NCBI GenBank assembly: GCA_002840125.1
Contig: PGZF01000004.1
Coordinates: 310,001-374,000 of the forward strand
Origin: Gammaproteobacteria bacterium HGW-Gammaproteobacteria-15
GTDB lineage: Bacteria; Pseudomonadota; Gammaproteobacteria; Enterobacterales; Alteromonadaceae
Length of the DNA: 64,000 nucleotides
Direction of reading: 5' to 3'
Below, one piece after another: positions 44,621 through 61,222 of the stretch; the first letter of the stretch is position 1; the number at the start of each line of letters is the position of its first letter. The notes below the pieces were generated by a model. It was not told where the DNA came from. It was given only the letters and a program-made list of their open reading frames with translations, and ran no database searches. Made by a program: the position numbers and the translations under genes.

Positions 44621-44648
44621 TGCTTGCATAAAAACTGCAGCAAAAAAG

Positions 44649-44674
44649 AAAGCCCTCGTTAATGAGGGCTTTTT
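44649..44674 (+). terminator. Terminator of DUF47-pit
   Basis: AAAGCCCTC / GAGGGCTTT stem, 6-base loop, T run. It lies between convergent genes and may also work for the minus-strand Lrp gene. Confidence 0.92.
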
Positions 44675-44722
44675 CGCAAACCGCTATGGCTTTATATCAG
44701 AGCGAAATCTAGCAAAGTGGAT

Positions 44723-45187
44723 TCAACGGCCCAGACTTAGCGGTAATGCAGTGGTGTATTTTATCTGCTCCATGGCAAAGTTTGACGAAATATCAACCAG
44801 GCCTTCCGTACTACCTATCAGCTTTTTGTAAAAGCGGTCATAGGCGGCAATGTCGCTGACCACGACACGCAGCATATAGTCCCATTCGCCAGACATACGA
44901 TAAAACTCCATCACTTCATCAAACTGGCTGACCGTGCGGGCAAATTTTTCCAGCCAGCCGCTTTCATGGCGTTGAGTTTTAATTTGTACGAATACTGACA
45001 GCCCCAAACCCACACGCTCGGCGTCGAGCAAAGCGACCCGGCTTCTGATATAGCCTTCGTCTTCCAGCTTTTTCACTCTCTTCCAACAGGGCGTCGACGT
45101 TAAGTTGACTGCTTCTGCCAGATCTTTTAATGCAATGGAGGCATCACGCTGCAATATGGTCAGGATCTGGTGATCAAAATTATCCAC
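44723..45187 (-). CDS. Lrp/AsnC-family transcriptional regulator 1
   Basis: A 154-residue regulator: N-terminal helix-turn-helix (LTILQRDASIALKDLAEAVN, then TSTPCWKRVKKLEDEGYI) and a C-terminal RAM domain (about 65-145) for amino-acid binding and octamer formation. It is divergent from the PLP lyase gene, so it most likely controls lyase-nhaC, as AsnC-type regulators usually act on the neighbouring gene. The effector may be methionine or another sulphur amino acid, by inference from the neighbours. Confidence 0.92.
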   Translation of the reverse strand: MDNFDHQILTILQRDASIALKDLAEAVNLTSTPCWKRVKKLEDEGYIRSRVALLDAERVGLGLSVFVQIKTQRHESGWLEKFARTVSQFDEVMEFYRMSGEWDYMLRVVVSDIAAYDRFYKKLIGSTEGLVDISSNFAMEQIKYTTALPLSLGR

Positions 45188-45206
45188 TTATAAAAGTCAC
45201 ATTTGG

Positions 45207-45259
45207 AGAAATATTTTCTAATATATCGCTATTTTAAGGAAATATCAGAAAAAAATTCT
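45207..45259. promoter_or_regulatory. Two Lrp-type operator sites
   Basis: AGAAATATTTTCT (45207-45219) and AGAAAAAAATTCT (45247-45259) each match the Lrp core AGHAWATTWTDCT at 11 of 13 positions. Their centres are 40 bp apart, near four helical turns. Both lie between the divergent Lrp gene and lyase gene. Confidence 0.6.
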
Positions 45260-45377
45260 TTGCGATTCCAGTAGTATTTTTATACCTAGGCCACTATTCA
45301 GCCAAAGCATATTTACTGCTGTGTTGGCTGGAAACACCAACCTTGAACTTCGGTTAGTCAACTTTAACGGATGCTTT

Positions 45378-46541
45378 ATGAAATCACGCCCAAATGCGTT
45401 CTCCACTCAGGTTATTCATGCCGGCGAGCAAGGTTGTCAGGCTGACAACGCTATTTTCCCGCCAATTTATACTTCCAGCACTTTTGTTAAACGTAATCTG
45501 GATGATAAGCCTGATTTTGCCTACGGCAGGGTGGGTAACCCCACCAGGCATGCTTATGAGTCATGTATAGCTGAGCTGGAAGGCGGCAGTGGCGCCGTGG
45601 CCTGTGCGTCGGGCATGGCGGCAACAGCTATGGTAATGGAGCTGTTACCCAAAGACAGTCATGTCATCGTAATGAGTGGTGTTTACGGTGGTACCTTTCG
45701 GTTGCTTGAAGATTATCGCAGCCACAGTTCCGGCATCACAGCCAGCTATGTCGACCTGAATGATTTGAATGCAGTAGCTGCGGCATGGCGTGAAAATACC
45801 AGGCTGATTTGGATTGAAACACCCACCAACCCGTTACTGCAATTGGTAGATTTAGCCCCGATAGCAAAGTTTGCCAAGAGCAAAGCCATTCTCAGCTGCG
45901 TCGACAATACCTTTTGCTCACCATGGAACCAACGGCCGCTGGGTTACGGCGTCGACCTGGTTATGCATTCTGCCAGCAAATATATCGGTGGCCATTCTGA
46001 TTTGATTGGCGGTGTGGTGGTTGCAGCTGATGCTCAGCTGGCTGGCCGGTTGAAAAAAATCGCGATGGCGCTGGGCGGTGTGCAAGGCCCTTTCGACTGC
46101 TATCTGGCACTGCGTGGGGTGAAAACTCTGGATGTGCGGATGGAACGGCAATGCGCCAATGCCTTGCAACTTGCGCGCTGGTTACAGACCTGTCCGCTGG
46201 TTGAACAGGTGTTTTATCCCGGCCTTGCCAGTCATCCGCAGTTTGCGCTGTGTCAGCAGCAGATGCGCACCGGCGGTGCTGTGGTATCAATAAAAATTAG
46301 TGCAGATCGTCAGCAAATTAACCGTTTTGTCGAGTCATTATCTTTATTCTTGCTGGCAGACTCATTAGGCGGTGTAGAGAGCATGATTAACCATTCATCG
46401 AGTATGTCGCATTGTTCATTAACGGCAGAGCAAAAAGAGGCTATGGGGATCAGTGAAAACCTGTTACGGCTGTCTGTTGGCCTTGAACAGGTTGAAGATC
46501 TAATTGCTGATCTCGAGCAGGCGTTTGGTAGCATCAGATAA
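45378..46541 (+). CDS. Cys/Met metabolism PLP enzyme (methionine or cystathionine gamma-lyase type)
   Basis: A 387-residue trans-sulphuration enzyme: STQVIHAGEQGCQADNAIFP, YGRVGNPTR, the PLP-contact SGMAATAMV, the PLP lysine in HSASKYIGGHSD, and SLGGVESMINHSSSMSH. Family members include methionine gamma-lyase, cystathionine gamma-lyase and beta-lyase; the sequence cannot select one with certainty, but the neighbours (Lrp regulator, NhaC-type transporter) favour amino-acid breakdown over synthesis. ATG 45378 gives the family start; the frame to 45321 is an extension. Confidence 0.88.
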   Translation: MKSRPNAFSTQVIHAGEQGCQADNAIFPPIYTSSTFVKRNLDDKPDFAYGRVGNPTRHAYESCIAELEGGSGAVACASGMAATAMVMELLPKDSHVIVMSGVYGGTFRLLEDYRSHSSGITASYVDLNDLNAVAAAWRENTRLIWIETPTNPLLQLVDLAPIAKFAKSKAILSCVDNTFCSPWNQRPLGYGVDLVMHSASKYIGGHSDLIGGVVVAADAQLAGRLKKIAMALGGVQGPFDCYLALRGVKTLDVRMERQCANALQLARWLQTCPLVEQVFYPGLASHPQFALCQQQMRTGGAVVSIKISADRQQINRFVESLSLFLLADSLGGVESMINHSSSMSHCSLTAEQKEAMGISENLLRLSVGLEQVEDLIADLEQAFGSIR

Positions 46542-46577
46542 GGGCACAATAATAATTAACGATGCGGGAGTAAGGCA

Positions 46578-48011
46578 ATGTCGGAACTAGGAGCCTGGTG
46601 CCTGATACCACCTTTTATTACTATCTGCCTGGCGGTTTTTAGCCGTCAGGTTATCCCTTCGCTGCTGATCGGTGCTGTTGCCGGCTTCTGGTTGCTAGCC
46701 GATTTTAACCCAGCGATGGGTTTGCAAAATTCCGTACAGGGTCTGGTGGACGTTTTTAAATCGGATGGTGCGGTTAAAACGATTCTGTTTGGTTTAATGA
46801 TTGGTGGAGTTATTCATCTGGCCCGGGTTACTGGCGGTATGCTTGGGCTTATTGATTTGCTTAGCGAACGGGCACGGATTGCCAGAGGGCCTGTTAGTAC
46901 CCAGTTATTGGCCGCGGCCATAGCCGCACTGATTTTTATTGAAAGTAATTTGTCATTATTAACCTCAGGTGCAGTAACTGGTGGCCCAGCCGCTAAATAT
47001 AAAGTATCACGCGAACAACTGGCCTACGTGATGCAAAATACCGGGCTTAGTGTCTGGTCATCAGTGCTGATCAATGGCTGGGGGGCTGCGATGATGGGCA
47101 TTATTGCGCTGCAGGTAGAGCAGGGCATGATCAGCGGTGAGCCGTTTACTATTCTGGCCCGTGCTGTGGGTTATAACCTGTTTGCCTGGGCATCCATCAT
47201 ATTGGTTTTAATTACCGTGCTTAGCGGTTTTGCTTTTCCTGCGATGCGCCGCGCGAATTTGCGCGCTGCTAAGGGCATAGAACTGCGCGAAGGCGCCGTG
47301 CCATTAGTGACAGGAAAACCAGAGGAGGAACCGCCAGGCGTTGTTGCCAATGCGTCTAATCTGCTGGTGCCATTACTGGCAATGATTGTATGTGTACCGA
47401 TAGGGCTTTATGTTACCGGCGATGGCAATATCACCAAAGGTTCCGGCGCCACCGCTGTGCTATGGGCAGTATTAATTGGGCAGTTGGTGGGGTTTGTGCA
47501 TTATGTGCTGGTAAAGCGAGAGCTTAGTTTCGACAGCTATTTCCGCCAGCTGCTGGTCGGCTATCAGACCATGGTGCCGCTGGCCGTGGTGATGACACTG
47601 GCTTTTCTGATCAGTAATGTATCTGGCCAGTTACAGATCGGTACTTATCTGGCACTGCATATTGATAGTTTTATGCCGGCCGGTTTAACGGCGGCATTTA
47701 TTTTTGTCATTGCCGGGGTGATGTCGCTGTCTACCGGTACCTCCTGGGGAACGTTTTCTATAATGATCCCGATAGGTATTCAGGTGGCGGCAACCGCGGG
47801 GGCCGATCCTTATCTGGTAATTGGGGCGGCAATCTCAGGCGCTATCTGGGGCGATACTATCTCTCCCATTAGTGATACTGGTATAGTAACGTCTATCGCT
47901 ACCCGGAATGACCATATGGATCACATAAGTACTCAATTGCCTTATTGTCTGGTGGCAAGTGCTTTGGCTCTCTGTGGTTTTGTGCTTATTGGGCTTGCCC
48001 AATCCTGGTGA
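46578..48011 (+). CDS. NhaC-family transporter, possible amino-acid (methionine) permease
   Basis: A 477-residue inner-membrane protein with about 12 hydrophobic segments. It carries NhaC-superfamily motifs such as GDTISPISDTGIVTSIATR and SLSTGTSWGTFSIMIPIG. The family was defined by Na+/H+ antiporters, but NhaC-like MetT proteins import methionine in Vibrio and Shewanella relatives. Following the PLP lyase after 36 bases, this one fits better as its substrate importer; that is inference. GGGAG lies before the ATG. Confidence 0.8.
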   Translation: MSELGAWCLIPPFITICLAVFSRQVIPSLLIGAVAGFWLLADFNPAMGLQNSVQGLVDVFKSDGAVKTILFGLMIGGVIHLARVTGGMLGLIDLLSERARIARGPVSTQLLAAAIAALIFIESNLSLLTSGAVTGGPAAKYKVSREQLAYVMQNTGLSVWSSVLINGWGAAMMGIIALQVEQGMISGEPFTILARAVGYNLFAWASIILVLITVLSGFAFPAMRRANLRAAKGIELREGAVPLVTGKPEEEPPGVVANASNLLVPLLAMIVCVPIGLYVTGDGNITKGSGATAVLWAVLIGQLVGFVHYVLVKRELSFDSYFRQLLVGYQTMVPLAVVMTLAFLISNVSGQLQIGTYLALHIDSFMPAGLTAAFIFVIAGVMSLSTGTSWGTFSIMIPIGIQVAATAGADPYLVIGAAISGAIWGDTISPISDTGIVTSIATRNDHMDHISTQLPYCLVASALALCGFVLIGLAQSW

Positions 48012-48058
48012 ATAAGACGGGCAATGACCAATGTCAATCAGCGCTAACACACCGCGTT

Positions 48059-49366
48059 TCAGGCTGTTTTGCCAGCGTCAGCATTATTGAATACTTGCAA
48101 GTCTAAGCAGTGTTCACTGCGGGCGACAAGACAGGAAACCATCGCATCGCCGCAGATATTTACTGCTGTTCTGGTCATATCCAGTAGCCGGTCAATACCG
48201 ATAATCAGCGCTATACCCTCAACTGGCAAACCCACCGAGGTCAGCACCATTGCCAGCATCACCATACCTACTCCAGGTACGCCGGCAGTGCCGATGGATG
48301 CCAGCGTTGCTGTCAGGATCACCATCAGGTAACTACTCAGGCCCAGCTCAATATTATAAACCTGCGCAATAAATACCGTTGCTACGCCCTGCATAATCGC
48401 CGTACCGTCCATGTTGATGGTGGCGCCCAGCGGTATGCTAAAAGAAGCCACTTTATTGTCAACCCCCAGTTTTTGGGTGACGGTGGCCAGATTGCTGGCA
48501 ATAGTCGCATTGCTGCTTGAGGTAGAAAAAGCAAATAAGGCGGTTTCTTTCATCTTGGTAAAAAACGTCAGCGGGTTTAATCTGCCCAAAACAGCAAGCA
48601 GTGTGCCGTATACCACGAAGGCATGTAGTACCAGCACAAACAGCACCAAGCCCAGATACCAGCCCAGGTTGCCAAGGTTCTCCAACTCTAAACTGGTAAA
48701 TTGTTTCGCCATGAGAAAGAACACCCCATAGGGCGATAACTGCATAACAATATTTACCAGCTTCATTACTATGACATTCAGGTCTGCAAACAACTGGCGC
48801 ATCCGTTCACCAGCGCTATCAGCAAGTGCAATGGATAAGCCAAATAATACTGCAAACACAATGATCTGCAGCATTTCACCTTGCGCCATCGCGGCGATAG
48901 GATTGCTGGGAAACATATTAATAAAAACCTGAACGGTTGAGGGCGGCAGTGATGGGCTGAAGCTTTGTTGTAGTGGTAAATTAATACCTGCTCCGGGCTT
49001 TAGCAGCAATGCCATACCAATGGCTATGCTGATTGCCAGCGCAGTAGTCAGAATATAAAGCAGTATGGTTTTACTGCCAATCCGGCCCAGAGTACGAATG
49101 TCCGTTAAGCTGCTGGTACCACATACTAACGACACAAACACCAGTGGCACTACCAGCATTTGCAGACTATTAATAAAAATCTGGCCGCCAGCGTGAAACA
49201 CGCCGTCGATTAGAAAGGCTTTGATGTTCACCGGATTAAGCCCTAGCGGAAGGGGGTAATCTGGGATATCTGTCAGCAGATACTGTAAACTCAGGCCAAC
49301 AAAGATGCCCAAGGCCATAGCAATAAGGATCCGCACCGTCAGGGAGGCTTTTTTAGTTGTAGTCAT
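48059..49366 (-). CDS. Dicarboxylate/amino acid:cation symporter (DAACS)
   Basis: A 435-residue inner-membrane carrier of the GltP/DctA/SstT group. Seen motifs: FSTSSSNATIASNLATVT (serine-rich hairpin 1), LGATINMDGTAIMQGVATVF and GTAGVPGVGMVMLAMVL. Substrates of the family are glutamate, aspartate, serine or C4-dicarboxylates. It is downstream of the amidohydrolase operon on the same strand, with a hairpin between, so it may import the released amino acids. ATG 49366 (MTTTKKASLTVRI) is preferred over the upstream frame. Confidence 0.9.
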   Translation of the reverse strand: MTTTKKASLTVRILIAMALGIFVGLSLQYLLTDIPDYPLPLGLNPVNIKAFLIDGVFHAGGQIFINSLQMLVVPLVFVSLVCGTSSLTDIRTLGRIGSKTILLYILTTALAISIAIGMALLLKPGAGINLPLQQSFSPSLPPSTVQVFINMFPSNPIAAMAQGEMLQIIVFAVLFGLSIALADSAGERMRQLFADLNVIVMKLVNIVMQLSPYGVFFLMAKQFTSLELENLGNLGWYLGLVLFVLVLHAFVVYGTLLAVLGRLNPLTFFTKMKETALFAFSTSSSNATIASNLATVTQKLGVDNKVASFSIPLGATINMDGTAIMQGVATVFIAQVYNIELGLSSYLMVILTATLASIGTAGVPGVGMVMLAMVLTSVGLPVEGIALIIGIDRLLDMTRTAVNICGDAMVSCLVARSEHCLDLQVFNNADAGKTA

Positions 49367-49420
49367 AATGGCTATCTTCTGAAAAACGTTGTCTTTGAAG
49401 GAGATTGCTTGTGGATTTGG

Positions 49421-49444
49421 GAAGGCCGGCAACGACCGGCCTTC
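49421..49444 (-). other. GC-rich hairpin between the amidohydrolases and the symporter
   Basis: GAAGGCCGG / CCGGCCTTC stem, 9 bp, 6-base loop, without a T run on the minus strand. It probably stabilises the upstream message or reduces read-through into the symporter. Confidence 0.5.
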
Positions 49445-49457
49445 GTTACTATTTTAC

Positions 49458-51215
49458 TTATTCGGCGATAAAGCGAACATTATCCAGTTCAAACCAGAAT
49501 ACCTGGCCTGAAGCGCGTTTCGCACCAAACTTAACCTGATAAATCTGGCTCGACTCCAACTCTTGGCTGAGAGTTGAAAACGGTACTTCTATTGTCTGCC
49601 AGTCAGTTCCGGCAGTAAAGGAGGTGTTGGCTTTACTTGTGCCGCTGCTGATCTCCAGAATATACTCTTCACCGTCACCTCTTATATCAAAGCTGATGCC
49701 GTTAAAAGCGCTGGCATCTGCCGGTATTACACTGCCGGGGTTCAGTGGCAGCACAATATAAGCATATGGTTGTGGTTTTTGCGCCAGTTTTGCCGATACG
49801 TGTAACGCTTTGTTGTTTGCTGATCGTGTTACCGGCTGACTGATCACAAGGCTTCTGGGAAAGCCATAATCGGTTTCGGCAAGCCGCGTTGCCATGCCAG
49901 TGGTTAAGCCATCCTGACTGTCAAAATCATCAATTACTGTATTTGCTGCTACAGCCATAGGTGCTGCCGGACCTTGCTGGGTTGTCAATTTACCGGTTTT
50001 AACCACCATATTGCCATCAACAAACACATACTCGGTGTTACGATAGTCCGCGATCTTTTTCCATGGTGCACCTTTAACCAGCACAAAATCGGCACGTTTC
50101 CCCACTTCAATAGTACCCCGGTCATGCTTTAATCCCAGCACTGCGGCGCTGTTGGCTGTGCCTGCGATGACTGCCTGGGCAGGTGTTAAGCCAAAATCGA
50201 CCAACAATTCGAGTTCTCTTAGCGTGGATTCACCGAAGGGGGTGGCACCAATGCCGGAATCGGTGCCAACCGCAATTGGAATGCCCGCTTTGGCCAGTAA
50301 CTGCAAGTTATAGCGTGACATTGCCTGACGGTGCATCACCAGAGCTTGCTGCGCCTTGGTATTGTTTTGTGTTTTATCCGGCCGTGGCTCGTATACCGCC
50401 AGCGTGGGGGCATAATACAGCTTATTGCTTTGCATCAGGCTTACCAGTTCGTTATCGGCTTTTCGATCCTGAATAGCATGCACAATGGCGCTGACATTGG
50501 CTTCTGCCGCTGTTTTAGCGCCATCGACGGTGACGGTATGGGTTACCACCGGCAGATTCAGCTGTTTTGCTTCAGCGGTAATAGCTGACAAAGCATCAAT
50601 ATTAATACTACTGTTATTAATGCGGTTGCCATAACGCCAGCCGTCGGCAAACACTTTGATCATGTCCGGCTGGTAAGGCTGTAACTGTTTGATGGCAGTT
50701 TGGCCTTCCAGTGCGGAGGTCGCCAATCGGGTCATATTTTCATCACCCCAGTCGGCACCATGGCCACCCGGTGTTGCTGTGCGGGCGGTGTAAATCACAT
50801 GCGGTGACACCAGAGTTTTGTGCCACTGTCGTTTAGGATTGAAGGACTCCGGCGCTGAGTGATAATCGGTTGCTGTGGTAACACCACTTTGCAGCAATAA
50901 GGTGGCGATATCGGCGCGGCTGACTCCGCCCATATTGGTCCAATGAACATGCACATCAATCAGGCCCGGCAGCATACTTAAACCTTTGCCCTCTACTACC
51001 TGTGTTCCTTCTGGCGTAGTAAGGTGGCTGCCAATACTCTCAAAACGCCCATTGCGCAGTAGTACATCGGCTTGAAAGGGTGCTTTGCCGGTGGCGTCAA
51101 ATATCATAACGTTACGGATTAAGGTATCCGCCTGCACATCAGTTGCCAAAGCTCCCCAACTGCAGACGCTAAGAGCTAACACGGCAAGGTGGGTATACAC
51201 TTTGTGTAATGTCAT
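49458..51215 (-). CDS. Exported amidohydrolase with C-terminal CIA30-like domain
   Basis: A 585-residue enzyme. Signal peptide (1-24), amidohydrolase metal-dependent domain with HxH as H89 and H91 (LIDVHVHW), a Lys in MIKVFADG (possible bridging carbamate), His in VVTHT, and the final Asp in GTDSGIGATPFGE. The last 165 residues (from about 420: VIDDFDSQDGLTTGMATRL) look like a CIA30/galactose-binding-like beta sandwich. Relatives act on N-acyl or cyclic amide substrates, or on prolyl dipeptides. Third amidohydrolase of the operon, 2 bases after the second. Confidence 0.85.
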   Translation of the reverse strand: MTLHKVYTHLAVLALSVCSWGALATDVQADTLIRNVMIFDATGKAPFQADVLLRNGRFESIGSHLTTPEGTQVVEGKGLSMLPGLIDVHVHWTNMGGVSRADIATLLLQSGVTTATDYHSAPESFNPKRQWHKTLVSPHVIYTARTATPGGHGADWGDENMTRLATSALEGQTAIKQLQPYQPDMIKVFADGWRYGNRINNSSINIDALSAITAEAKQLNLPVVTHTVTVDGAKTAAEANVSAIVHAIQDRKADNELVSLMQSNKLYYAPTLAVYEPRPDKTQNNTKAQQALVMHRQAMSRYNLQLLAKAGIPIAVGTDSGIGATPFGESTLRELELLVDFGLTPAQAVIAGTANSAAVLGLKHDRGTIEVGKRADFVLVKGAPWKKIADYRNTEYVFVDGNMVVKTGKLTTQQGPAAPMAVAANTVIDDFDSQDGLTTGMATRLAETDYGFPRSLVISQPVTRSANNKALHVSAKLAQKPQPYAYIVLPLNPGSVIPADASAFNGISFDIRGDGEEYILEISSGTSKANTSFTAGTDWQTIEVPFSTLSQELESSQIYQVKFGAKRASGQVFWFELDNVRFIAE

Positions 51216-51217
51216 CT

Positions 51218-52489
51218 TTATTGTCCTTGCCGGTTATCTGTTAAGGCCGCTGCCGGTTGCAGGGTTTTAATGTATTTTGTTTCCAGTTGGTTTTGTCGGG
51301 AGGTTAACGGTTGCTTTATACCATTAATATACAGGCTGGTGAGTTCGGTTAGGGGTTCAAAGGGATCTCCGGACCAAATGGCTAAATTCGCCTTTTGACC
51401 AACAGCCACAGTACCGAAGTCGGTAGCGCCAAATACGCGGGCAGGCCTTACAGTGACCGCTTGCAAGGCGATGTCAAACGGCAAGCCACGAGCTACCGCC
51501 ATCCCGGCGAAAAAGCGGATTTTACTGGCATCATGTGCGGATGAACCGCCTTTGAGAATAATATTTACCCCGGCTTGATGCAACTTGGCGGTATTTTCGG
51601 CAGAGGCTGCTATCTCATCAAAACTCGACGGTAGGTTATTGGTTGGATCAATAATCACGGTAACGCCCGACGCAGCAATGTCGTTCGCAACCTGCCAACC
51701 TTCGGCGGCACCAAGCAGCACCAACTGTAGTTTTTCCTGCTGGCTAAGTTGCAATAATGCCAGGATATCTGAGGCGCGATCGACTTTGGCAATCAGCGGC
51801 TTTTTCCCCTGGATAATTGGTAACAGCGCGTCCAGATCGACAACAGACCACTCTTTGGCAGTAAGCTCACCTTTGGCAAAAGCAGATTTATTGCGGGCAT
51901 AACGCTTCACATCTGCCAGCTCGGCTTGTAATTGCACAAAGAGTGCGCCTCTGCCTGCGGCTTGGGTACGCATTTCCCACACCACGGCGGTTTGGGCGCT
52001 AATTTCGGGTTTGGCGCCGAGATGTAAAATTGCGGCTTGACCAGCAAAATTAGCATTACCGGCACCGGCATTAGGGATCACAATTGCACTACTAACTCCA
52101 CCCTGTCGGGCTACGGCAATAGCAGTGGAGTGGGGGTTAATGGCGTACTTTACATCATAACCGGCGCTGACCGCTGCGGCTCGGCTGCCGGTTTCGGCTG
52201 CATTAGCACCGCCGCTGATTTCTACCATGCCCAATAAAGTATCGGTGGCTACCAGCCCTGGTGTGACGACTTTACCAGACAGATCCTGTAGTACTGCATT
52301 GGCAGGTAAGGTTAAATTTGTACCAATAGCATTAATTTTGCCGTCTTTAATTAACACTGTGATGTTTTCCAACGTGCCAGCCGAGGCCGCGGTATGTACT
52401 TTGACATTTTGCAGCGCGATGGTTTGTGCCGTTAATTGGCAACTGGTCAGGATGGCGATACTGATAAGAAAAGCATTTAAGTTATTCAT
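51218..52489 (-). CDS. Amidohydrolase-family protein without HxH metal motif (probable pseudoenzyme)
   Basis: A 423-residue exported protein (signal peptide 1-22) with the amidohydrolase fold: N-terminal beta sandwich (IALQNVKVHTAASAGTLENI) and the C-terminal return strand (GTVAVGQKANLAIWSGDPFE). Where active members read PGxIDxHxH, this one reads PGLVATDTLLG (residues 78-87): both metal His are missing, although SSAHD near the end survives. It overlaps the active amidohydrolase by 8 bases. Loss of the metal site in an intact frame suggests a structural or regulatory partner subunit. Confidence 0.85.
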   Translation of the reverse strand: MNNLNAFLISIAILTSCQLTAQTIALQNVKVHTAASAGTLENITVLIKDGKINAIGTNLTLPANAVLQDLSGKVVTPGLVATDTLLGMVEISGGANAAETGSRAAAVSAGYDVKYAINPHSTAIAVARQGGVSSAIVIPNAGAGNANFAGQAAILHLGAKPEISAQTAVVWEMRTQAAGRGALFVQLQAELADVKRYARNKSAFAKGELTAKEWSVVDLDALLPIIQGKKPLIAKVDRASDILALLQLSQQEKLQLVLLGAAEGWQVANDIAASGVTVIIDPTNNLPSSFDEIAASAENTAKLHQAGVNIILKGGSSAHDASKIRFFAGMAVARGLPFDIALQAVTVRPARVFGATDFGTVAVGQKANLAIWSGDPFEPLTELTSLYINGIKQPLTSRQNQLETKYIKTLQPAAALTDNRQGQ

Positions 52490-53825
52490 TATTTGCCTCC
52501 AATGCGGGCTGCCCTAATAGAAAATCGGATTCCGGCGCAGTAGCGGCTTGTGTCCGATCGACCAGCAACACGCCGTCGATATACACTTTTTCGGCCACCG
52601 CATAGACACTAAAGGGATCGGCGGACCATACCACAACATCTGCCATCTTTCCGGGCTCCAAACTGCCAGTTCGATCAGCAATAGCCATTGATACTGCCGG
52701 GTTTAGGGTAATCCAGCGTATAGCTTCTTCCCGGCTGATGGTTTTATTTACCCGCTTAGCGGAGGCTATTGCCATGGCGGCTTCAATATTTAGCCGTTGG
52801 ATCAGAGTTGCGCTATCAGAATGCAGCATGGTATGCACACCAGCCCACTCAAGCGCAGCGACATTCAGAGGCACAGCATCATAGGCTTCCAGTTTAAAGC
52901 CCCAGCGATCTGCCCAGGTAGCGATAGCGATATTTTCTTTTGCCAGTATATCGGCAATTTTGTAGGCTTCTGTCGCGTGGTGAAAGGCAGTAATGTTGAA
53001 GCCAAACTCCTTGGATAAATCAATCATCTGCATCATTTCGTCGGCGCGGTAGCAGTGGATATGTGTATCTATTTCACCTGCCAAAATACCGGCGAGGGTT
53101 TCCAGCTTCAAATCCACTTTAAAAGCGCTGCGGTCTTTAGTGGTATTGCGCCTTTCCAAATACGCCTGGGCGTCAATAAAGGCGCTGCGAAATCCGGCCA
53201 TATTACCCATACGGGTGAAAGGATCATTGCCTCGGGCAGCATAGGTAATAGGGTTTTCGCCACAGGCCATTTTTGCGCCATAGCGGGCAGCAGGGAATTT
53301 CATCGCCTGCACACTTACTGCCGGCACATTTTTAATGGTAACACTGCGGCCACCGAACAAATTGGCAGAGCCTGGCAAAATGGCCAGTGTGGTTACGCCA
53401 CCGCGGCGTGCTTGTTCAAAGCCTGGGTCTTGCGGCCAGATAGAATGCTCTGCCCATACCTCAGCGGTATTTTTTGCAGTCTTTTCGTTGCCATTACGCA
53501 TTGACGGTACACCAGGGGAAGAAAATACCCCTAAGTGTGAATGGATATCAATAATACCCGGAGTTACCCATTTACCTTTGCCATCAATCACTACAGCATC
53601 GGCGGGTATAGCGATATTCTCACCCACTTGCAGTATTTTGCCATTTTGCAAAATCACGGTGCCGCCATTTAATTGCGGGCCAGCGGCAGTAAGTATGGTG
53701 GCGCCGACAATAGCTGTAGTGGGAGATGAGGCAGGTTTATAGGTTGAAGGATATGGCGCTTCAGGTTGAGCCTGAACCGCACCAGAGGCTGTCACCAGCG
53801 CTAAAATCAGTGCACGTGGGTTCAT
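52482..53825 (-). CDS. Exported amidohydrolase, HxH intact
   Basis: A 447-residue metal-dependent hydrolase: signal peptide (1-20), beta-sandwich start (AIVGATILTAAGPQLNGGTV), HxH as H95 and H97 (GIIDIHSHLG), then IDTHIHCY, NITAFHHATEAYKI and MLHSDSATL for the remaining ligands, and the closing segment GSLEPGKMADVVVWSADPF. It resembles imidazolonepropionase-like or dipeptidase-like amidohydrolases found in Alteromonadales; no substrate is known. First enzyme gene after the TonB receptor, 83 bases downstream. Confidence 0.88.
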   Translation of the reverse strand: MNPRALILALVTASGAVQAQPEAPYPSTYKPASSPTTAIVGATILTAAGPQLNGGTVILQNGKILQVGENIAIPADAVVIDGKGKWVTPGIIDIHSHLGVFSSPGVPSMRNGNEKTAKNTAEVWAEHSIWPQDPGFEQARRGGVTTLAILPGSANLFGGRSVTIKNVPAVSVQAMKFPAARYGAKMACGENPITYAARGNDPFTRMGNMAGFRSAFIDAQAYLERRNTTKDRSAFKVDLKLETLAGILAGEIDTHIHCYRADEMMQMIDLSKEFGFNITAFHHATEAYKIADILAKENIAIATWADRWGFKLEAYDAVPLNVAALEWAGVHTMLHSDSATLIQRLNIEAAMAIASAKRVNKTISREEAIRWITLNPAVSMAIADRTGSLEPGKMADVVVWSADPFSVYAVAEKVYIDGVLLVDRTQAATAPESDFLLGQPALEANNE

Positions 53826-53908
53826 TGTTGCTTTCCTCGTAATAATATTTTACGTAAAAGTGATGTATAACTGCCCGGTGCCATTAAGGCTCCGGGAACG
53901 AGGCGTAA

Positions 53909-56900
53909 TCAGAACTCCGTCTGGAACTGCACATAAAAGTAGCGTGGTGTGGCAGAATATAGCGAACCCATATAGCCGAATGTCTCGTCGGCCAGTGGCG
54001 GTGCTTTATCGAACAGGTTACGCACACCGATACGGATGCTGCTGTTACCCATAGCACTTTCATCAAAGCTGTATTGGCCGTACAGGTTTACCACAGTGTG
54101 ATCGTCTACCCGGTAGTAGTTACCGGCACTGTCTGACATCGAGGTGTCATCCACTTCACCGACATAGGTGGCATTTGCACCTACACGAACCTGATTATAG
54201 GTCCAGGTTAATGACGTGGATAAACGTAGTTTAGGGTTGCCGTTTTGCTCTATCAGATTAGCCGTTTCCGGCAGTACAGTGCCAATATTAATAGTACCGG
54301 CATCACGGGCAGCATATAGCTCGTTAATGGCATCTGGCACACCCCGGTTATAGGTCAACAGGCGTGATGCATTCAGGCTGTAATCAAAATCACCGAAGCG
54401 GGTGCCGTACAGCTTCCAGATTAAGCCAAAGTCGATACCCTCAACCGTTTGTGGCTGTAAGTTCTGGTATACATCATCGACATAAAGCACTTGCCCTGCT
54501 GGTTCCAGGCCAGTGCCGGCAAAGCGGGCAATATCATCTGCGGTTGGGTCAAGCCGGATAACATTTGGGTTAGTTGTGCCTTGTACCCGGTTTAAATAAT
54601 CCACTATCAGTGCATTACCCTCACCAAAAACGCCGACTATACCGGTTTGTTTAATTGACCAGTAATCTGCAGTAAAAGTAATGTTACCTAAAGCGTCAGG
54701 TAAAAACTGTGGCTGGATAACCGTACCTACCGTCCAGTTGGTTGACTCTTCCGGTTGTAATTCAGGGTTGCCGGCGCGACGTGCCGTGGCGACTGTATTA
54801 CCACTACATTGATTAAAAGAGCTGATACGGCCGGCACGTAAATCGGCTTCACAGAGCAAATAATCCACCCTGGTATTGCCGCGAGTTACCAGCGTGGCGT
54901 TTACCTGTTCCAGATTGGGAGCGCGGAAACCTTCAGAGTAAGCACCACGAAACCGCAGGCCCTCTACCACATCCCACGCCAGAGCTGCTTTAGGTTTAGC
55001 TACGCTACCAAAATCGCTGTAATCTTCAAAACGTCCGGCAAGTTGTAACGACAGTGAACGCATTAACGGAATATCCATTTCTGCAGACACCAGCGGTATC
55101 GCAAGTTCGGCGTAAGCCGATGCGACTTTACGCGAGCCTTTATTGTCGGGAGTAGGGCTGACACCGTACAAATTACTTTCGTTCAGCACCCCGGTTACTG
55201 TATCTAACCAAGTATAGGTACCATCGACATTTGGGTCACGATCATCAAGCTGGGTTTCACGACGAAACTCAACGCCGGCAGCAATACCGATATTGCCAGC
55301 CCAGTTTTGCAACACATCAGCTTTAGATACGTTGGCGTCCCACTGAAATAAGGTAGTTTCGTTACGGCGGTTTGAGTCAATTAAAATGGCGTCTAACGCG
55401 GCCTGTGAACTGATGGTACTGTCGGCTGATGGATTAAGCGGATCGCCACCGTTAAAGGGGTTAAATGCATCCGGTGTGGAAAGCGCCAGATTGGCTTGTA
55501 AAGCGGTGGCGCTGACACCTTGCTGGCGGTCGTCGACAGTAGCACCACTATACAACAATGCTGTCTCCCAATCCCAACCGCTGGTTTCACCGCGCAAACC
55601 ACCTAATAAGCGGAATTGCTCTGCTTTTACCCGTACTGTAGTGGGGCCTAAATCAGAAAATCGCAGCGCCAGAATACTAACAGGTAAGCCTGCCTCAGGC
55701 GCGTTAATATTGGCTAAACGGTTTGGATTGACTGTACCATCAGCAAACGTTACCGGGCCAAACGGGTTCCAGTAGTTTGTTGCCGGCACTGTCATCCGCA
55801 TTGAGGCAATGCTAAACACCGAATCTTGTACGCTCTCGGTTTTGGCTTGATAGAAACCCGCCTCACCAAACAGCTCCATGCCGTTATTCAGGTCATACTT
55901 GGCCATGGAGAACAGGTTCAGCCGCTTAAGATCAGGTGTAACCGCAACAGGATAATTCTGCCGTGCATCCCAACGCATATTCAGATCGTCACCGGTATAC
56001 GCCGGCGCACCATCATCAATACAACTGCCGTTGCCCAAATTGCTCAGACAACCGGCATTAGTGCCAGGCTGAACATGAAAAGCGCCGGCTGCGGTGGTTA
56101 TTGCAGTGCCATCTTGCATTACTCTGACATTGCCCTGTGTTTGGAAAGAACCCCAGGGAGTAGTGGTAGAGTCATTACGCAGTGCTGCATTGCCTTCCCA
56201 AGGTGTGCCGACAAATAACGGACTTAAATCGCCTAAGGAAGTAAAGGTTTGATCGCTGGCACGCAATGCTGAGCGGTCAGTATAGTTAACGAAAAAGGTG
56301 ATATTACCCATACCGTTGGCAATATCCTGGCCGAATAAACCGTTAAAGGTGACTTCATTCAGGTTGGTACCGGGCGCATCACCATACTGCACCTCAATAC
56401 GGGCGCCGTCAAAATCATCCTGATATTCCATATTCACTACGCCGGCTACAGCATCAGAGCCATAAATTGCACCCGCACCATCGCGCAGCACTTCAACACG
56501 TCTGAGGCCGTTTACCGGCGCAGTATTAGAGTTAAAAGTTAATACTGGTGCTAAATTGTCACTGGCCTGGCTGCTGGGATAGTTAACACCACGGCGGCCA
56601 TTTATTAATACCAGCGTGTTGCCTACGCCCAGGCCACGTAAGTCGACTGAACCTACGTCACCGCGGGCAAAGTTACTGCTAACCTGGCCGGAAGTCTGGT
56701 TAAAACTGACGTTGCCCATTTGCGGTATCGCGCGAAATAAGTCTTCACCGGAGGTTGCAGCTATAGTGGCAATTTCTTTGGCATCAATCACGCTTACTGG
56801 CAAAGAACCAGCAACGTCAGTACCGAAAATCCGGCTGCCAACCACGGAGATCTTTTCAACTTCTTTCTCTTTACTGCTGTTGGTTGCTTCTTGTGCTTGT

Positions 56901-56962
56901 GCTTCTGCCGCAATCAATGCCATAGCATTAATGGTCAGGATCAGACTTTTTTTTATTTTCAT
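53909..56962 (-). CDS. TonB-dependent receptor of the amidohydrolase locus
   Basis: A 1017-residue outer-membrane receptor: signal peptide (1-23, AEAQA), a TonB-box-like EKISVVGSRI, plug domain (about 50-180) with DVGSVDLRGLGVGNTLVLINGRRG and RRVEVLRDGAGAIYGSDAVAGVVN, and a long barrel ending in Phe (YFYVQFQTEF). This plug type is often encoded with peptidases and amidohydrolases. It heads the operon with the amidohydrolases. Its cargo is likely their substrate, such as a peptide or amide too large for porins. Confidence 0.92.
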   Translation of the reverse strand: MKIKKSLILTINAMALIAAEAQAQEATNSSKEKEVEKISVVGSRIFGTDVAGSLPVSVIDAKEIATIAATSGEDLFRAIPQMGNVSFNQTSGQVSSNFARGDVGSVDLRGLGVGNTLVLINGRRGVNYPSSQASDNLAPVLTFNSNTAPVNGLRRVEVLRDGAGAIYGSDAVAGVVNMEYQDDFDGARIEVQYGDAPGTNLNEVTFNGLFGQDIANGMGNITFFVNYTDRSALRASDQTFTSLGDLSPLFVGTPWEGNAALRNDSTTTPWGSFQTQGNVRVMQDGTAITTAAGAFHVQPGTNAGCLSNLGNGSCIDDGAPAYTGDDLNMRWDARQNYPVAVTPDLKRLNLFSMAKYDLNNGMELFGEAGFYQAKTESVQDSVFSIASMRMTVPATNYWNPFGPVTFADGTVNPNRLANINAPEAGLPVSILALRFSDLGPTTVRVKAEQFRLLGGLRGETSGWDWETALLYSGATVDDRQQGVSATALQANLALSTPDAFNPFNGGDPLNPSADSTISSQAALDAILIDSNRRNETTLFQWDANVSKADVLQNWAGNIGIAAGVEFRRETQLDDRDPNVDGTYTWLDTVTGVLNESNLYGVSPTPDNKGSRKVASAYAELAIPLVSAEMDIPLMRSLSLQLAGRFEDYSDFGSVAKPKAALAWDVVEGLRFRGAYSEGFRAPNLEQVNATLVTRGNTRVDYLLCEADLRAGRISSFNQCSGNTVATARRAGNPELQPEESTNWTVGTVIQPQFLPDALGNITFTADYWSIKQTGIVGVFGEGNALIVDYLNRVQGTTNPNVIRLDPTADDIARFAGTGLEPAGQVLYVDDVYQNLQPQTVEGIDFGLIWKLYGTRFGDFDYSLNASRLLTYNRGVPDAINELYAARDAGTINIGTVLPETANLIEQNGNPKLRLSTSLTWTYNQVRVGANATYVGEVDDTSMSDSAGNYYRVDDHTVVNLYGQYSFDESAMGNSSIRIGVRNLFDKAPPLADETFGYMGSLYSATPRYFYVQFQTEF

Positions 56963-57026
56963 GCTGGTTCTTCCTTCCTAATGCTCCTAGTGAGCAGCTG
57001 ATAAACTTGCTTGTCCTGAATTTCTG

Positions 57027-57048
57027 CCCGATATGTCGGGTCTTTTTT
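57027..57048 (+). terminator. Terminator-like hairpin in plus orientation
   Basis: CCCGA-TATG-TCGGG followed by TCTTTTTT. It reads as a terminator on the plus strand although all adjacent genes are on the minus strand; between the racemase gene and the TonB receptor. Confidence 0.5.
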
Positions 57049-57090
57049 ATTGAAAATACCACTTCGCATACACAACCAGCGCAGTGGGTA

Positions 57091-57831
57091 TCAGATTGGG
57101 TGTTTCGCTTCCGGCAGTGACGGCAATTTGCTTGTTATATGCGGTAAGGCAAAACTCACTGCCGCATCTGCATGAATTTGAGTTGAGTCATAACCGGGCA
57201 AAGGTAATTCATCGGTTGAAACCAGTAGCTGAATTTCGGTGCAGCCAAGAATGACGGCATCAGCGCCGGCCTGTTGCGCATCCTGTACCATACGGATAAT
57301 TTCCTTGCGTGAGTCCGGGCAGATCTGGCCGCAGCAAAGCTCGTCAAAGATAATCCGTTGTAACGCCTGGCGGTCTGCAACAGCAGGGACTTTGATATCA
57401 ATTCCTAACCCGGCCATGCGTTGGTGATAAAAGCCATGCTCCATGGTGTATTTAGTTGCCAGCAGCAAAACATTTTTGTGGCCATCAGCGCTAAGCCGGG
57501 CTGCTGTTTCCGTAATGATGTCTATTAAAGGGATTTGTCGAGCGCCGGTTGCAACCTGATCAGCAACTAAATGCATAGTATTGGTGCAAATGAGTATGCA
57601 ATCAGCACCGGCTTGCTGCAGACCTTTTGCTGCATCAGCCAACAGAGCTCCGGCTTGCGGCCATTGTCCGCGTTGCTGAAAACCGACGATTTGCGAGAAA
57701 TCCAATGAATTTAGCAGTATTTTAGCCGATGCCAGGCCACCCAATTGAGTTCTGACTGCCTCATTGATATAGCGATAGTAAGTTGCTGTTGATTCCCAAC
57801 TCATACCACCAAGCAACCCTATAGTTTTCAT
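57091..57831 (-). CDS. Aspartate/glutamate racemase family protein
   Basis: A 246-residue cytoplasmic racemase of the RacX/YgeA group: MKTIGLLGGMSWESTATYYR at the start, and two catalytic Cys, in CILICTNTMH (near residue 82) and in VILGCTEIQLL. Members interconvert L- and D-forms of Asp, Glu or other amino acids. It lies upstream of the TonB receptor on the same strand, and next to the divergent Lrp gene, so it probably belongs to the same pathway and would handle a D-amino acid released there. Confidence 0.9.
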   Translation of the reverse strand: MKTIGLLGGMSWESTATYYRYINEAVRTQLGGLASAKILLNSLDFSQIVGFQQRGQWPQAGALLADAAKGLQQAGADCILICTNTMHLVADQVATGARQIPLIDIITETAARLSADGHKNVLLLATKYTMEHGFYHQRMAGLGIDIKVPAVADRQALQRIIFDELCCGQICPDSRKEIIRMVQDAQQAGADAVILGCTEIQLLVSTDELPLPGYDSTQIHADAAVSFALPHITSKLPSLPEAKHPI

Positions 57832-58023
57832 AGCTCTTATCCTGCCTAATTTCTAACCAATTACTAAGCTACAATAATTGCCGCAGAAAAGGTGTGCTTT
57901 TTTTGTACTAAATTGGCATTATTTTGCATGTAACACGCGCATATTGTATTAAGCGCGCATTTTCATTGCGTGATGAAGGTTTCTATTATTCTGTTTTGTT
58001 ATATCTAATAACCAGGGGTGAGT

Positions 58024-58485
58024 ATGCTTGATAAAATAGATCGTCAGATTTTGGAGTGCCTGCAGGAAAATGCCGAAGTTTCAGTGGCTGACATTGCCGA
58101 TCAGGTTGCGTTGTCGGCATCGGCTTGTTCGCGCCGTATTATGCGTTTAAAAGAGGAAGGCTATTTCACTAAAGTCATTGCCTTACTTGATAGAAAAAAG
58201 GCGAACTTACCCACCACTATTTTTCTGATTGTACGAACCGGGTGCCATTCTGCAGATTGGCTTGGGCAATTTCACACGGCGGTTTCAAGTATTCCTGAGA
58301 TAGTGGAAGTACATCGAGTAACGGGCAATTTTGACTACATTCTGAAAATTGTATTGCCCAACATAGAGTATTACGACGTAATTTATAAGCAGTTGCTGCA
58401 ACAGATGGAGCTATATGACATGTCGGCTTATATCTCAATGGAAACAGTTAAATTGTCTTCCGGATTGCCAATAACACATATGTGA
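58024..58485 (+). CDS. Lrp/AsnC-family transcriptional regulator 2
   Basis: A 153-residue regulator: [20 protein letters not shown], the helix-turn-helix [19 protein letters not shown], and a RAM domain. The ATG at 58024 has AGGGG 6 bases upstream; the in-frame GTG at 58018 would be part of that site. It is divergent from the racemase-receptor-amidohydrolase cluster, making it the likely local regulator with an amino acid as effector. About 30 percent similar to regulator 1 by eye. Confidence 0.92.
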
Positions 58486-58542
58486 CACAGGCTAACGGTT
58501 GACTATGCCGGTTCTATCTTTTTTGATGTAAAGCGCGGGTTT

Positions 58543-58570
58543 AAAAAGCCCTCATCACGAGGGCTTTTTT
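58543..58570. terminator. Bidirectional terminator
   Basis: AAAAAGCCCTC-ATCAC-GAGGGCTTTTTT between two convergent genes; A and T runs on both sides let it work in both directions. Confidence 0.92.
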
Positions 58571-58586
58571 ATGCTGGTTATATCGC

Positions 58587-60848
58587 TTATGGCTGGTATT
58601 CACTCACCAGCGTTAAGCCGCTTACTGCACGGAAGGCATATACAGAGAAATGCCAGACACCGGCTTGCGGGTTGTTAATAACGCAGGTTTCGCTATTGCC
58701 GTTTTTACTTGGCCGGCAATCATAGCTGCCGCTTGTAGGCTGGCTGCCATGCTTCACGTACAGATCGGCATCACCGCTGCCACCGCTGATCTCAACCGTT
58801 AGCTGGGCCATACCTTCTGGTACTTCCAGCGTATAGTGCTGCCAGGCACGGCGCGCTATGTTGATGTTGGTAATGGTTTCGCCACCGGCGTCTGGTAAAT
58901 CCGGTGCGGTAAAGCTGCCGGTCAGGTTGACACCGGTAAAGGCGCTGTACGCTACCAATTTAACAAAGTAAGTACCGGTTTGTGCCGGATCAATAGCACA
59001 GCTTTCGTTATTGCCAAACAGGTAAGGCCGGCAGTCCCAGTTTGATGCCGTTGGCTCGCTGCCAAACTTGACATACAAGTCAGCATCACCGGTGCCGCCG
59101 TTCATGACAAATGACAGGTTGCTAGCGCCGGCAGGTACGGCCAGGGTATACAGCAGTTCTTCACCGGCTGCAGCGCTGATGCCCGATACTGTTACGCCAT
59201 TGCTAAGCTCAGTGCCGGTTGGCGGTGGTGGCTCGTTATCGTCGCCATCGCCGTCACAGCCAAACTCGGCCAGATAATCTACCGCCGCTTTGGTTTGCAC
59301 CAAACCATAGCCATAAGAGGTGTCACGGCCAGCCGCGCCTAAATCTTCTGCTGTTGCTGCTAAAGCACTGCGGATTTGCGCATTGCTGCAATCCGGGTAA
59401 TGGCTCCATACCAGCGCTGCTACGCCGGCTACGTGCGGCGACGCCATAGAGGTGCCGTCCATCAGGCCGTAGTTAGACGGTTCAGCGAACAAGCTGGCAT
59501 CATTACCTACTTCAGCAAGCAATAACTGGCCGTCTTCCTGCGATACGCTTAACGCTACTATATTAGTAGTGGGGGCATCACCTAAAGTACCACTGAAATT
59601 GCCTGATTCATTGTTATAAATAACTGCACCAATACCGCCACCGGCCTGGCATGACTCCACTTTTTGTGCGAAAGACACTTCGCCACGCTGGATCAGACAT
59701 ATTTTATCGGCAACGTCGGTACAGGTATTTACTGCAAGGCCACAGCTGGCAAGCTCAGCATTTAAACTTGCCATGGCCGAACCTTCCAGCGGGTTAGTGC
59801 TGTAAGTGGTGCTGTTAACCGTCAGGCTGGTTTCCAGGCCTGTGCCGGTAGGATAAGTACTCATTACGGCAACGCCCGGGCCTGCCAGTTCTACCTGTGT
59901 ATTGCGCTGGGAGAAATCGGCGTGGGCTTTGGTGTCGTCAACTGCTGCAACAGAAACCACCGAATCATAAGATGCCGGATACGACATGGCGGTATTGCCG
60001 TCATTACCGGCAGCGGCAACAAGTAACACACCGGCGTCATAGGCGGCCTGCATGGCGTTGCGTTCAGTCACGTTTGAACCGGCGCCGCCCAAACTCATAT
60101 TAATGACGGTAGAGCCGTTTTGCACACAGGTATCTACTGCATGTGCCAGAGTAGAAGAATAACCCCAGCCACCGGCGTTAAATACTTTAATAATATGCAG
60201 TTTTACGTTGCCGTTGGGCAGCACACCCACAATGCCGACATCGTTATTCAGCGCAGCGATGGTACCGGCTACGTGCGTGCCGTGTGGGCCACCGGCGTCA
60301 AACCAGTTACCGGTGCCGATATCATTGGTGCCGGTGACATTGGCAGCGTTAAAATCTTCATGCGGTAAACCCAGGCCAGAGTCGATAACACATACCGTCT
60401 GATTAGAGGCAAACTGGTCACTAACCAGATCGGCCTGCACCATGGTGTAACCGTAAGGCACTTGCTGCGACATAGGAAAACGCGGTAAATCGCGTTCGAC
60501 ATATTCTACATTAGGATCTGCTTTTAATGCTTTAACCGCGGCAGGGCTTAGCTCGGCAGCTATGGCATTACGTTTGGCCAGCACATGGTGAACCCGGGCA
60601 CCTTGCCGGCTTAAGCGTTCACTGTTGCTGGTTAGTACAGACAGCGCATTGTCTTTTGCTGCTTTACTGCGGTTTAACAGCGGATCTTTACTCAGGCTGT
60701 TGTCTTTATATTTTACGATATAGCGCTCGCTACTGGCTTGTTCTGCCGCCTGGCGCAATGAGTCTGTTGATGCGGCCATGGCATTGGATATCGCGCTTGC
60801 CAATAAGCTAACGCCGATCAGTAGTACAGTGTGATGTGATCTGGACAT
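58587..60848 (-). CDS. Secreted S8 serine protease with PA insert and two PPC domains
   Basis: A 753-residue protease: signal peptide (1-25, NAMA), I9 propeptide (about 40-122), S8 domain with D156 (VIDSGLGLP), H189 (GPHGTHVAGT), oxyanion N282 (AAGNDGN) and S467 (GTSMASPHVAG), and a PA-like insert (about 345-455). Two bacterial pre-peptidase C-terminal domains close it (about 535-635 and 645-750), each with GDADLYVKxGS and a Cys pair. These are typical of Alteromonadales and Vibrio extracellular subtilases. ATG 60848 is chosen over GTG 60854 because GGAGG is 6 bases before it and would touch the GTG. Confidence 0.93.
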   Translation of the reverse strand: MSRSHHTVLLIGVSLLASAISNAMAASTDSLRQAAEQASSERYIVKYKDNSLSKDPLLNRSKAAKDNALSVLTSNSERLSRQGARVHHVLAKRNAIAAELSPAAVKALKADPNVEYVERDLPRFPMSQQVPYGYTMVQADLVSDQFASNQTVCVIDSGLGLPHEDFNAANVTGTNDIGTGNWFDAGGPHGTHVAGTIAALNNDVGIVGVLPNGNVKLHIIKVFNAGGWGYSSTLAHAVDTCVQNGSTVINMSLGGAGSNVTERNAMQAAYDAGVLLVAAAGNDGNTAMSYPASYDSVVSVAAVDDTKAHADFSQRNTQVELAGPGVAVMSTYPTGTGLETSLTVNSTTYSTNPLEGSAMASLNAELASCGLAVNTCTDVADKICLIQRGEVSFAQKVESCQAGGGIGAVIYNNESGNFSGTLGDAPTTNIVALSVSQEDGQLLLAEVGNDASLFAEPSNYGLMDGTSMASPHVAGVAALVWSHYPDCSNAQIRSALAATAEDLGAAGRDTSYGYGLVQTKAAVDYLAEFGCDGDGDDNEPPPPTGTELSNGVTVSGISAAAGEELLYTLAVPAGASNLSFVMNGGTGDADLYVKFGSEPTASNWDCRPYLFGNNESCAIDPAQTGTYFVKLVAYSAFTGVNLTGSFTAPDLPDAGGETITNINIARRAWQHYTLEVPEGMAQLTVEISGGSGDADLYVKHGSQPTSGSYDCRPSKNGNSETCVINNPQAGVWHFSVYAFRAVSGLTLVSEYQP

Positions 60849-60854
60849 GTTCAC

Positions 60855-61222
60855 CCTCCAGGTGATTTTTATAGTTTTTAAACTGTCAGAACCCGATACA
60901 ACGCGGACGGCAAAACTCGCAAACGGGGGGGAACTATTGTATTTACCTCAGTTATTGCCACAGGGTTGTTACCTGCCAGTTTCACTGATCTAATACAATT
61001 AGCTGTTTACGCTATAACAAATAATACTGTTATTCAAACTCATGTTTACATAAAAGCAGAAGATATCACTTAAGGTGTTGAATTTGTGTTTACTAATTTT
61101 TATCAGTTGTAATTTTATGTGCGGCGTAAAATTACCGGCTGCCGCTTGCATAGCACTGTTATCAGGCGTAAAGTTTAACCACTTTTGTAGAATGGCATCT
61201 TTGTTTTTAATCGGAATAAATA
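60855..61222. other. Divergent promoter region of S8 protease and oxyR
   Basis: About 370 bases of AT-rich DNA, with the GGAGG site of the protease at the left end and the GGAATAAATA leader of oxyR at the right. I see no small gene, tRNA or strong hairpin. The ATAATACTG and TAATACAATTAGC stretches are possible -10 elements, not firm enough to call. Confidence 0.6.

Follow-up and report, generated by a model that had tools for sequence, protein, structure and literature searches.

An inserted island of about 13.9 kb couples a TonB-dependent receptor to an amidohydrolase and its metal-less relative in an Alteromonadaceae genome

TonB-dependent uptake loci with periplasmic hydrolases import a compound and then cleave it in the periplasm, and a receptor accompanied by an extracytoplasmic function (ECF) sigma factor, FecR and an STN domain is in the usual dress of siderophore receptors. 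A locus predicted to follow the same import-then-cleave logic was studied at positions 48059-58485 of a stretch of 64,000 nucleotides (the window) from Gammaproteobacteria bacterium HGW-Gammaproteobacteria-15 (assembly GCA_002840125.1, contig PGZF01000004.1). It encodes a TonB-dependent receptor, three exported amidohydrolase relatives, named AH1, AH_dead and AH_CIA30, a symporter of the SDF family, a racemase and an Lrp/AsnC regulator. AH_dead has lost the metal ligands of its family and is kept under purifying selection beside the intact AH1. The locus is best read, with a probability of roughly 0.58, as part of a horizontally acquired nutrient-scavenging island for an amide-linked amino-acid compound.

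The first-pass annotation of this DNA had described seven genes, and the list of open reading frames (ORFs) together with Pfam and NCBIfam bore out their positions, families, shared strand and divergent regulator. The start of the symporter gene was revised, ATG 49366 being more likely than TTG 49432. Read along the minus strand, the order is racemase, TonB receptor, AH1, AH_dead, AH_CIA30 and SDF, with Lrp diverging from 58018:

48059..49366, minus strand: SDF symporter of the Glu/Asp type (PF00375; frame listed from TTG 49432, ATG at 49366)
49421..49444, no strand: 24-nt inverted repeat with a 9-pair stem between AH_CIA30 and SDF
49458..51215, minus strand: AH_CIA30, exported amidohydrolase with a CIA30-like tail (Pfam; ligands H89, H91, K187, H226, H246, D319)
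51218..52489, minus strand: AH_dead, exported pseudoenzyme related to amidohydrolases that lacks the metal ligands (Pfam, alignment)
52482..53825, minus strand: AH1, exported amidohydrolase (ligands H95, H97, K185, H257, H283, D337)
53909..56962, minus strand: TonB-dependent receptor (Plug and TonB barrel, both above the Pfam cut-off)
57091..57831, minus strand: YgeA/EcL-DER-like amino acid racemase (Asp_Glu_race; T83, C197)
58018..58485, plus strand: divergent Lrp/AsnC regulator (Pfam HTH and AsnC)

The genes of AH1 and AH_dead overlap by 8 nt, and 2 nt separate AH_dead from AH_CIA30. Pfam matched AH1 to Amidohydro_1/3, AH_dead to Amidohydro_1/3 in its C-terminal part only, and AH_CIA30 to Amidohydro_1 and CIA30 (PF08547, 26.7 bits, cut-off 24). 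Export signals were judged by eye at the N termini of the receptor and the three amidohydrolase relatives; that of AH_dead (51218-52489) contains the letters ILTSC, which could be a lipoprotein site and do not recur in the aligned Hyphomonas-family rows. The inverted repeat in front of SDF, which has no T run in the reading direction, makes co-transcription of this gene uncertain. Neither promoter-like sites (11 versus 15.3 in shuffles) nor terminator-like sites (15 versus 11.8) in the locus were judged to exceed the shuffled sequences.

Outside the window 27 loci were compared, 11 of them close (AH_CIA30 47-65% identical; nine from the Hyphomonas family and two from Alteromonadaceae) and 16 distant (37-43%). 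All 11 close relatives have the order TonB receptor, AH1, AH_dead, AH_CIA30, which supports the locus as one conserved unit and rules out coincidental neighbours. Conservation of gene order, the check that the annotation had asked for, held for the core; the extent of the unit proved wider, as described below. Eight loci came from named genomes, in Hyphomonas, Henriciella, metagenome-assembled genomes (MAGs) of Alphaproteobacteria and the two Alteromonadaceae; a separate scan of named genomes with AH_dead as the only probe gave no match. In the Hyphomonas/Henriciella family, 23 of 105 genomes were matched by AH_CIA30 at E<=1e-100, in 25 loci. Wide conservation across Alteromonadales was not found. 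Among 295 genomes of the order, the window's own AH_CIA30 scored 1308.9 bits and the next best 119.8, and among 369 genomes of the class only the window passed E<=1e-70; neither of these samples included the Alteromonas with an AH_CIA30 match. Two of 295 genomes of the family matched at E<=1e-60, the window's and one other, at the Alteromonas lipolytica JW12 locus, and this threshold was reached by none of the 15 further genomes of the window's genus sampled there.

Around the core the genes change. In six of the 11 close relatives the TonB receptor belongs to a different type (about 25% identity to that of the window, as measured for four of the six), and in the Hyphomonas MAG locus L076 (3735-7282) the receptor is divided over two frames of 792 and 401 aa, through either a disrupted gene or faulty assembly. 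A divergent Lrp gene is present in 8/11: three Hyphomonas-family copies in the same divergent position are 72-76% identical and five others 42-48%. Within the stretches read, the racemase was found in three of the 11 and SDF in none, one stretch ending before the SDF position; SDF as an ancestral component was thus ruled out. A sodium:alanine symporter lies behind the enzymes in eight (assigned by Pfam on four loci and by similarity on the remainder), and one more locus is cut off there, so that the annotated placing of an amino-acid symporter behind the enzymes holds for the window and these eight. Since an amino-acid symporter or amino-acid enzyme is usually there and its type varies, the logic looks conserved and the product is probably not.

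The metal ligands of the amidohydrolase superfamily are HxH, Lys, His, His and Asp. That the middle amidohydrolase lacks HxH had been noticed before; the lysine, the two histidines further along and the aspartate are gone too, leaving 0/6 ligands in the AH_dead of the window. The metal sites reported as intact in the two others were found throughout, with all six ligands (H, H, K, H, H, D) in 47/47 AH1 proteins and a six-ligand site in 27/27 aligned rows of AH_CIA30. AH_dead kept none in 40 of 49 proteins, one in seven and two in two (sets collapsed at 97% identity, proteins of less than 330 residues excluded). In a sample of the phylum, AH_dead was matched at E<=1e-25 in 36/299 genomes. AH1 stands directly upstream in 29/29 loci, taken from the 30 best AH_dead places with the window's own excluded; at least six of the 29 are Alteromonadales also present in the order sample, and six weaker genomes, some with neighbours of about 1000 aa, fall outside this count. 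All six ligands are present in the 25 AH1 proteins of this set that are completely readable, against no more than two in any of its 26 AH_dead proteins. In the order, among the matches listed, AH1 and AH_dead adjoin in 17 relatives with differing surrounding genes, and a relative of the window's TonB receptor stands beside the pair in 0/17. Elsewhere in the window's own genome (G000:C6:174405-177802, L058), a protein of 1039-1046 aa with two amidohydrolase stretches is followed by an AH_dead-like protein of 455-460 aa, which retains 2/6 ligand letters, and an M28 peptidase.

Among three near relatives, the ratio of nonsynonymous to synonymous substitution rates (dN/dS) was 0.08-0.11 for AH_dead, 0.05 for AH1 and 0.09 for AH_CIA30, which rules out that AH_dead is a decaying pseudogene. 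Columns conserved in at least 90% of rows numbered 39 for AH_dead (71 rows) and 126 for AH1 (67 rows), and a few AH_dead matches in the genome tables run across a stop. Conservation and dN/dS together indicate that the product of the AH_dead gene is under selection although it has no metal site; its simplest reading is a putative structural or regulatory partner of AH1. The two proteins look like an old duplication: among solved structures AH1 has a single strong relative, the Thermotoga maritima amidohydrolase 3ooq (E 4e-82), which is also well ahead of all others for AH_dead (E 4e-41). The window differs in carrying an active and a metal-less copy side by side, a comparison that covers the 3ooq protein alone.

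The locus proved to be the right-hand part of a larger insertion, at about 44,675-58,542, with ten genes: the seven above and three more to their left.

44675..58542, no strand: whole inserted island, about 13.9 kb (both flanks joined, stretch absent in five same-genus relatives)
44648..44674, no strand: left copy of a bidirectional terminator-like hairpin at the insertion point (inverted repeat 44649-44672; one copy in empty sites)
58543..58570, no strand: second copy of this terminator-like hairpin, at the right-hand end of the island (comparison with empty sites)
44723..45187, minus strand: Lrp2, a second Lrp/AsnC regulator inside the island (Pfam PF01037)
45321..46541, plus strand: pyridoxal-phosphate enzyme of Cys/Met metabolism inside the island (Pfam; nearest solved relatives cystathionine gamma-lyase-like)
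46578..48011, plus strand: NhaC-type transporter of the Na+/H+ antiporter family (PF03553)

An empty site was found in 5/5 same-genus stretches compared, which are 89-95% identical to the window and were those with the most similar S8 peptidase gene among the 21 other genus genomes bearing it. This gene, to the right of the island, is present in 22/31 genus genomes, the window's own counted; the NhaC-type gene was matched at E<=1e-100 in 1/31, namely the window's own. At the empty-site junction, the match to the window runs to 44,623 or 44,674 and abuts a match from 58,543, the matching pieces overlapping by 26-28 bases or leaving a gap of 15-16 bases. With both flanks joined in five relatives, about 13.9 kb are extra at the window's site. 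The break falls inside the hairpin, between convergent genes, and the hairpin occurs in two copies with the island and in one copy in the empty sites. No tRNA was found at the island edge within 40000-62000, and no integrase was recognisable among the ORFs of at least 100 aa listed in 44000-62000. The pyridoxal-phosphate enzyme (45321..46541) had a match at E<=1e-60 in 7/11 other genomes tested, the best about 41% identical.

A tree of AH1, built by a quick method and rooted at the midpoint, joins the window with nine rows from the Hyphomonas family and two from Alteromonadaceae in one group with a Shimodaira-Hasegawa-like approximate likelihood ratio (SH-aLRT) of 100, separate from the generic AH1-AH_dead pairs found in the order. 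By path the row nearest to the window is a Hyphomonas (77% identity), with Alteromonas second, although the tree does not resolve how the six rows concerned branch. Tree and empty sites together point to horizontal acquisition of the island by the window's lineage. The G+C content of 48059-58485 is 0.489 and that of the window 0.491, against 0.57-0.62 in five Hyphomonas-family stretches. Base composition thus shows no trace of a recent transfer.

The scavenging reading would work as follows. The TonB receptor would import an amide-linked amino-acid compound, a small peptide or an N-acyl amino acid, into the periplasm. There amide bonds would be cut by AH_CIA30, a putative metal-dependent amidohydrolase of the carboxypeptidase/aminoacylase type, and by AH1, acting as a heteromer with the metal-less AH_dead. 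The freed amino acid may enter the cell through the symporter whose gene follows those of the enzymes (SDF in the window, the Na+:alanine symporter in most Hyphomonas-family loci), its stereochemistry would be adjusted in the cytoplasm by the YgeA-like racemase, and Lrp would switch the cluster in response to it. The nearest solved relatives of AH_CIA30, with activities as given in their records, include the Lys/Arg carboxypeptidase Cc2672, Xaa-Pro dipeptidases and ochratoxin amidohydrolases, and several of them remove a C-terminal amino acid. Fold and profile matches were best with the Cc2672/Xaa-Pro dipeptidase group (3mtw, 3be7, 2qs8, 3mkv, 3n2c), which shares the six metal ligands; AH_CIA30 is about 20% identical to it, carries the CIA30-like tail and has a TonB receptor and a pseudoenzyme as neighbours. 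The cut-off of 500 bits of the NCBIfam Xaa-Pro dipeptidase model NF051886 was not reached by AH_CIA30 (121.9), AH1 (49.5) or AH_dead (41.7). Structure models were weak (predicted local distance difference test score, pLDDT, 67 for AH_CIA30), and only top fold matches were used.

Several points weigh against this reading. Molinate and phenylurea hydrolases, which release no amino acid, are also among the solved relatives of AH_CIA30, and AlphaFold gave a low-confidence model for AH_dead (pLDDT 53). Transporter and racemase vary among relatives, so that products may differ, and the generic pair without this receptor in all 17 listed order relatives suggests that the role of AH1 and AH_dead may be broader. 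The ECF sigma, FecR and STN found in part of the relatives would suit siderophore receptors as well.

The distant loci bear on the first alternative. None of the 16 showed AH1 or AH_dead; in 15 a TonB receptor 44-51% identical to that of the window lies within about 6 kb of AH_CIA30, which indicates that receptor and enzyme travel together. Eleven (L117-L127) carry genes like gamma-glutamyltransferase (GGT), clustered with those of AH_CIA30 and the TonB receptor. Seven of these also stand behind PutP (one scored, passing its NCBIfam cut-off, the rest by similarity), and in L122 ProB and ProC adjoin PutP. Four others (L113-L116) have ECF, FecR, TonB and AH_CIA30 near a D-amino acid dehydrogenase (one scored, passing its cut-off) and a further amidohydrolase, presumably D-aminoacylase-like from its start, which NCBIfam describes no further than 'amidohydrolase family protein' (90.2 of 340 bits). 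In G932 (L077, L113) and in G936 (L081, L125), one genome contains a close AH_CIA30 locus as well as a distant one. Remoter AH_CIA30 relatives (about 26-30%, tail included) at L071-L075 have neighbours that look like ABC transporter and response-regulator clusters.

These GGT-like genes suggest that the compound could be a gamma-glutamyl peptide of the glutathione kind, whose gamma-glutamyl bond is opened before AH_CIA30 splits the remaining dipeptide, Glu, Cys and Gly/Ala being taken up and used. No GGT match was found in the 11 loci with AH1 and AH_dead, as if the pair did the GGT step. The symporters would fit as well, SDF in the window being of the Glu/Asp kind and the sodium:alanine symporter of the relatives of the Ala/Gly kind, and so would the cystathionine-gamma-lyase-like enzyme in the island and the N-formylglutamate-amidohydrolase-like gene (PF05013) found in 2/11 close relatives, the two Alteromonadaceae. 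This explanation is nevertheless doubtful. The cluster of the window has no GGT, six of the seven GGT-like proteins scored fall below the NCBIfam cut-off, and the PF05013 protein is far under that of HutG (41.4 of 278.75 bits). The racemase has no obvious place in it, and four distant loci have the D-amino acid dehydrogenase instead. Rather unlikely, too, is its extension, in which AH1 and AH_dead would form an undescribed obligate two-subunit metalloenzyme, widespread in Pseudomonadota, that here does the GGT step by opening a gamma-glutamyl or comparable isopeptide bond before AH_CIA30 splits the dipeptide.

SDF and the racemase had led to the proposal of a peptide with D-Asp or D-Glu, from which the acidic D-amino acid is cleaved, taken up by SDF and racemised to the L form. 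The nearest solved relative of SDF is an aspartate transporter, whose DMxRTxxN motif is kept and whose arginine presumably binds acidic side chains; the Pfam SDF cut-off was reached, that of GltP (NF008440) was not (256.5 bits of 638). The racemase belongs to the Asp/Glu family and passes the amino acid racemase model TIGR00035 (216.2 bits, cut-off 93.1). It matches E. coli YgeA/EcL-DER (5hqt, 5ell) over the full length with T83 and C197 kept, although it lies in a different gene cluster and below the equivalog cut-off of PRK10200 (YgeA; 250.7 of 417 bits). A second YgeA-like racemase, 49% identical, is encoded outside the island in the same genome (G000:C1:1322868-1323560). Passages of PMC12838360 describe the Thr83/Cys197 pair as catalytic in racemases of this type, and in passages of PMC12838360 and PMC8142540 EcL-DER is described as active on L-Asp and L-Glu and not on their D enantiomers, and YgeA as a racemase of broad specificity or of homoserine. 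These reports weaken the claim, and with SDF in none and the racemase in three of the 11 close relatives an acidic D-amino acid in the substrate is quite unlikely. From the pathway first proposed, import, periplasmic amide cleavage and amino-acid import agree with the gene context, and the D-Asp/D-Glu part found no support.

A peptidic xenosiderophore, imported and dismantled in the periplasm for its iron, is distinctly improbable. ECF sigma and FecR lie beside the receptor in 5/11 close relatives, with an STN domain on the single receptor tested, and the receptor of the window is weakly similar to NCBIfam siderophore receptors (best 79.7 bits, cut-off 583). The cluster of the window has no ECF or FecR, no STN domain was found on its receptor by Pfam, and it has Lrp, a racemase and an amino-acid symporter instead. 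Detoxification of an amide natural product by the amidohydrolases, brought to mind by the ochratoxin-degrading and herbicide amidohydrolases related to AH_CIA30, is very improbable, as the importer and the amino-acid symporters kept alongside are not needed for it.

What had been a suspected cluster is now a sharply delimited unit whose relatives span two bacterial classes and whose logic can be put to the test. Adjacent enzyme and pseudoenzyme genes kept under purifying selection, in 36/299 sampled phylum genomes, are of wider interest; knowledge of the substrate would show what is done by genes that have no more than the family-model name 'amidohydrolase' and would bear on the use of amide nitrogen by such bacteria. 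No description of the cluster or of the AH1-AH_dead pair was found with narrow terms in the open-licence literature, a scope that leaves closed journals uncovered. The component families are known, and the new element is their arrangement and the pseudoenzyme pair. By its description, the bile salt hydrolase that Bilophila secretes (PMC13081902) is comparable, as a metal-dependent member of the amidohydrolase superfamily that leaves the cell and cleaves an acyl-amino compound; the main text of that paper does not contain the terms TonB, pseudoenzyme, heterodimer or gene cluster. Compared with other TonB-dependent uptake loci, the island has an amidohydrolase trio including a pseudoenzyme in place of other hydrolases.

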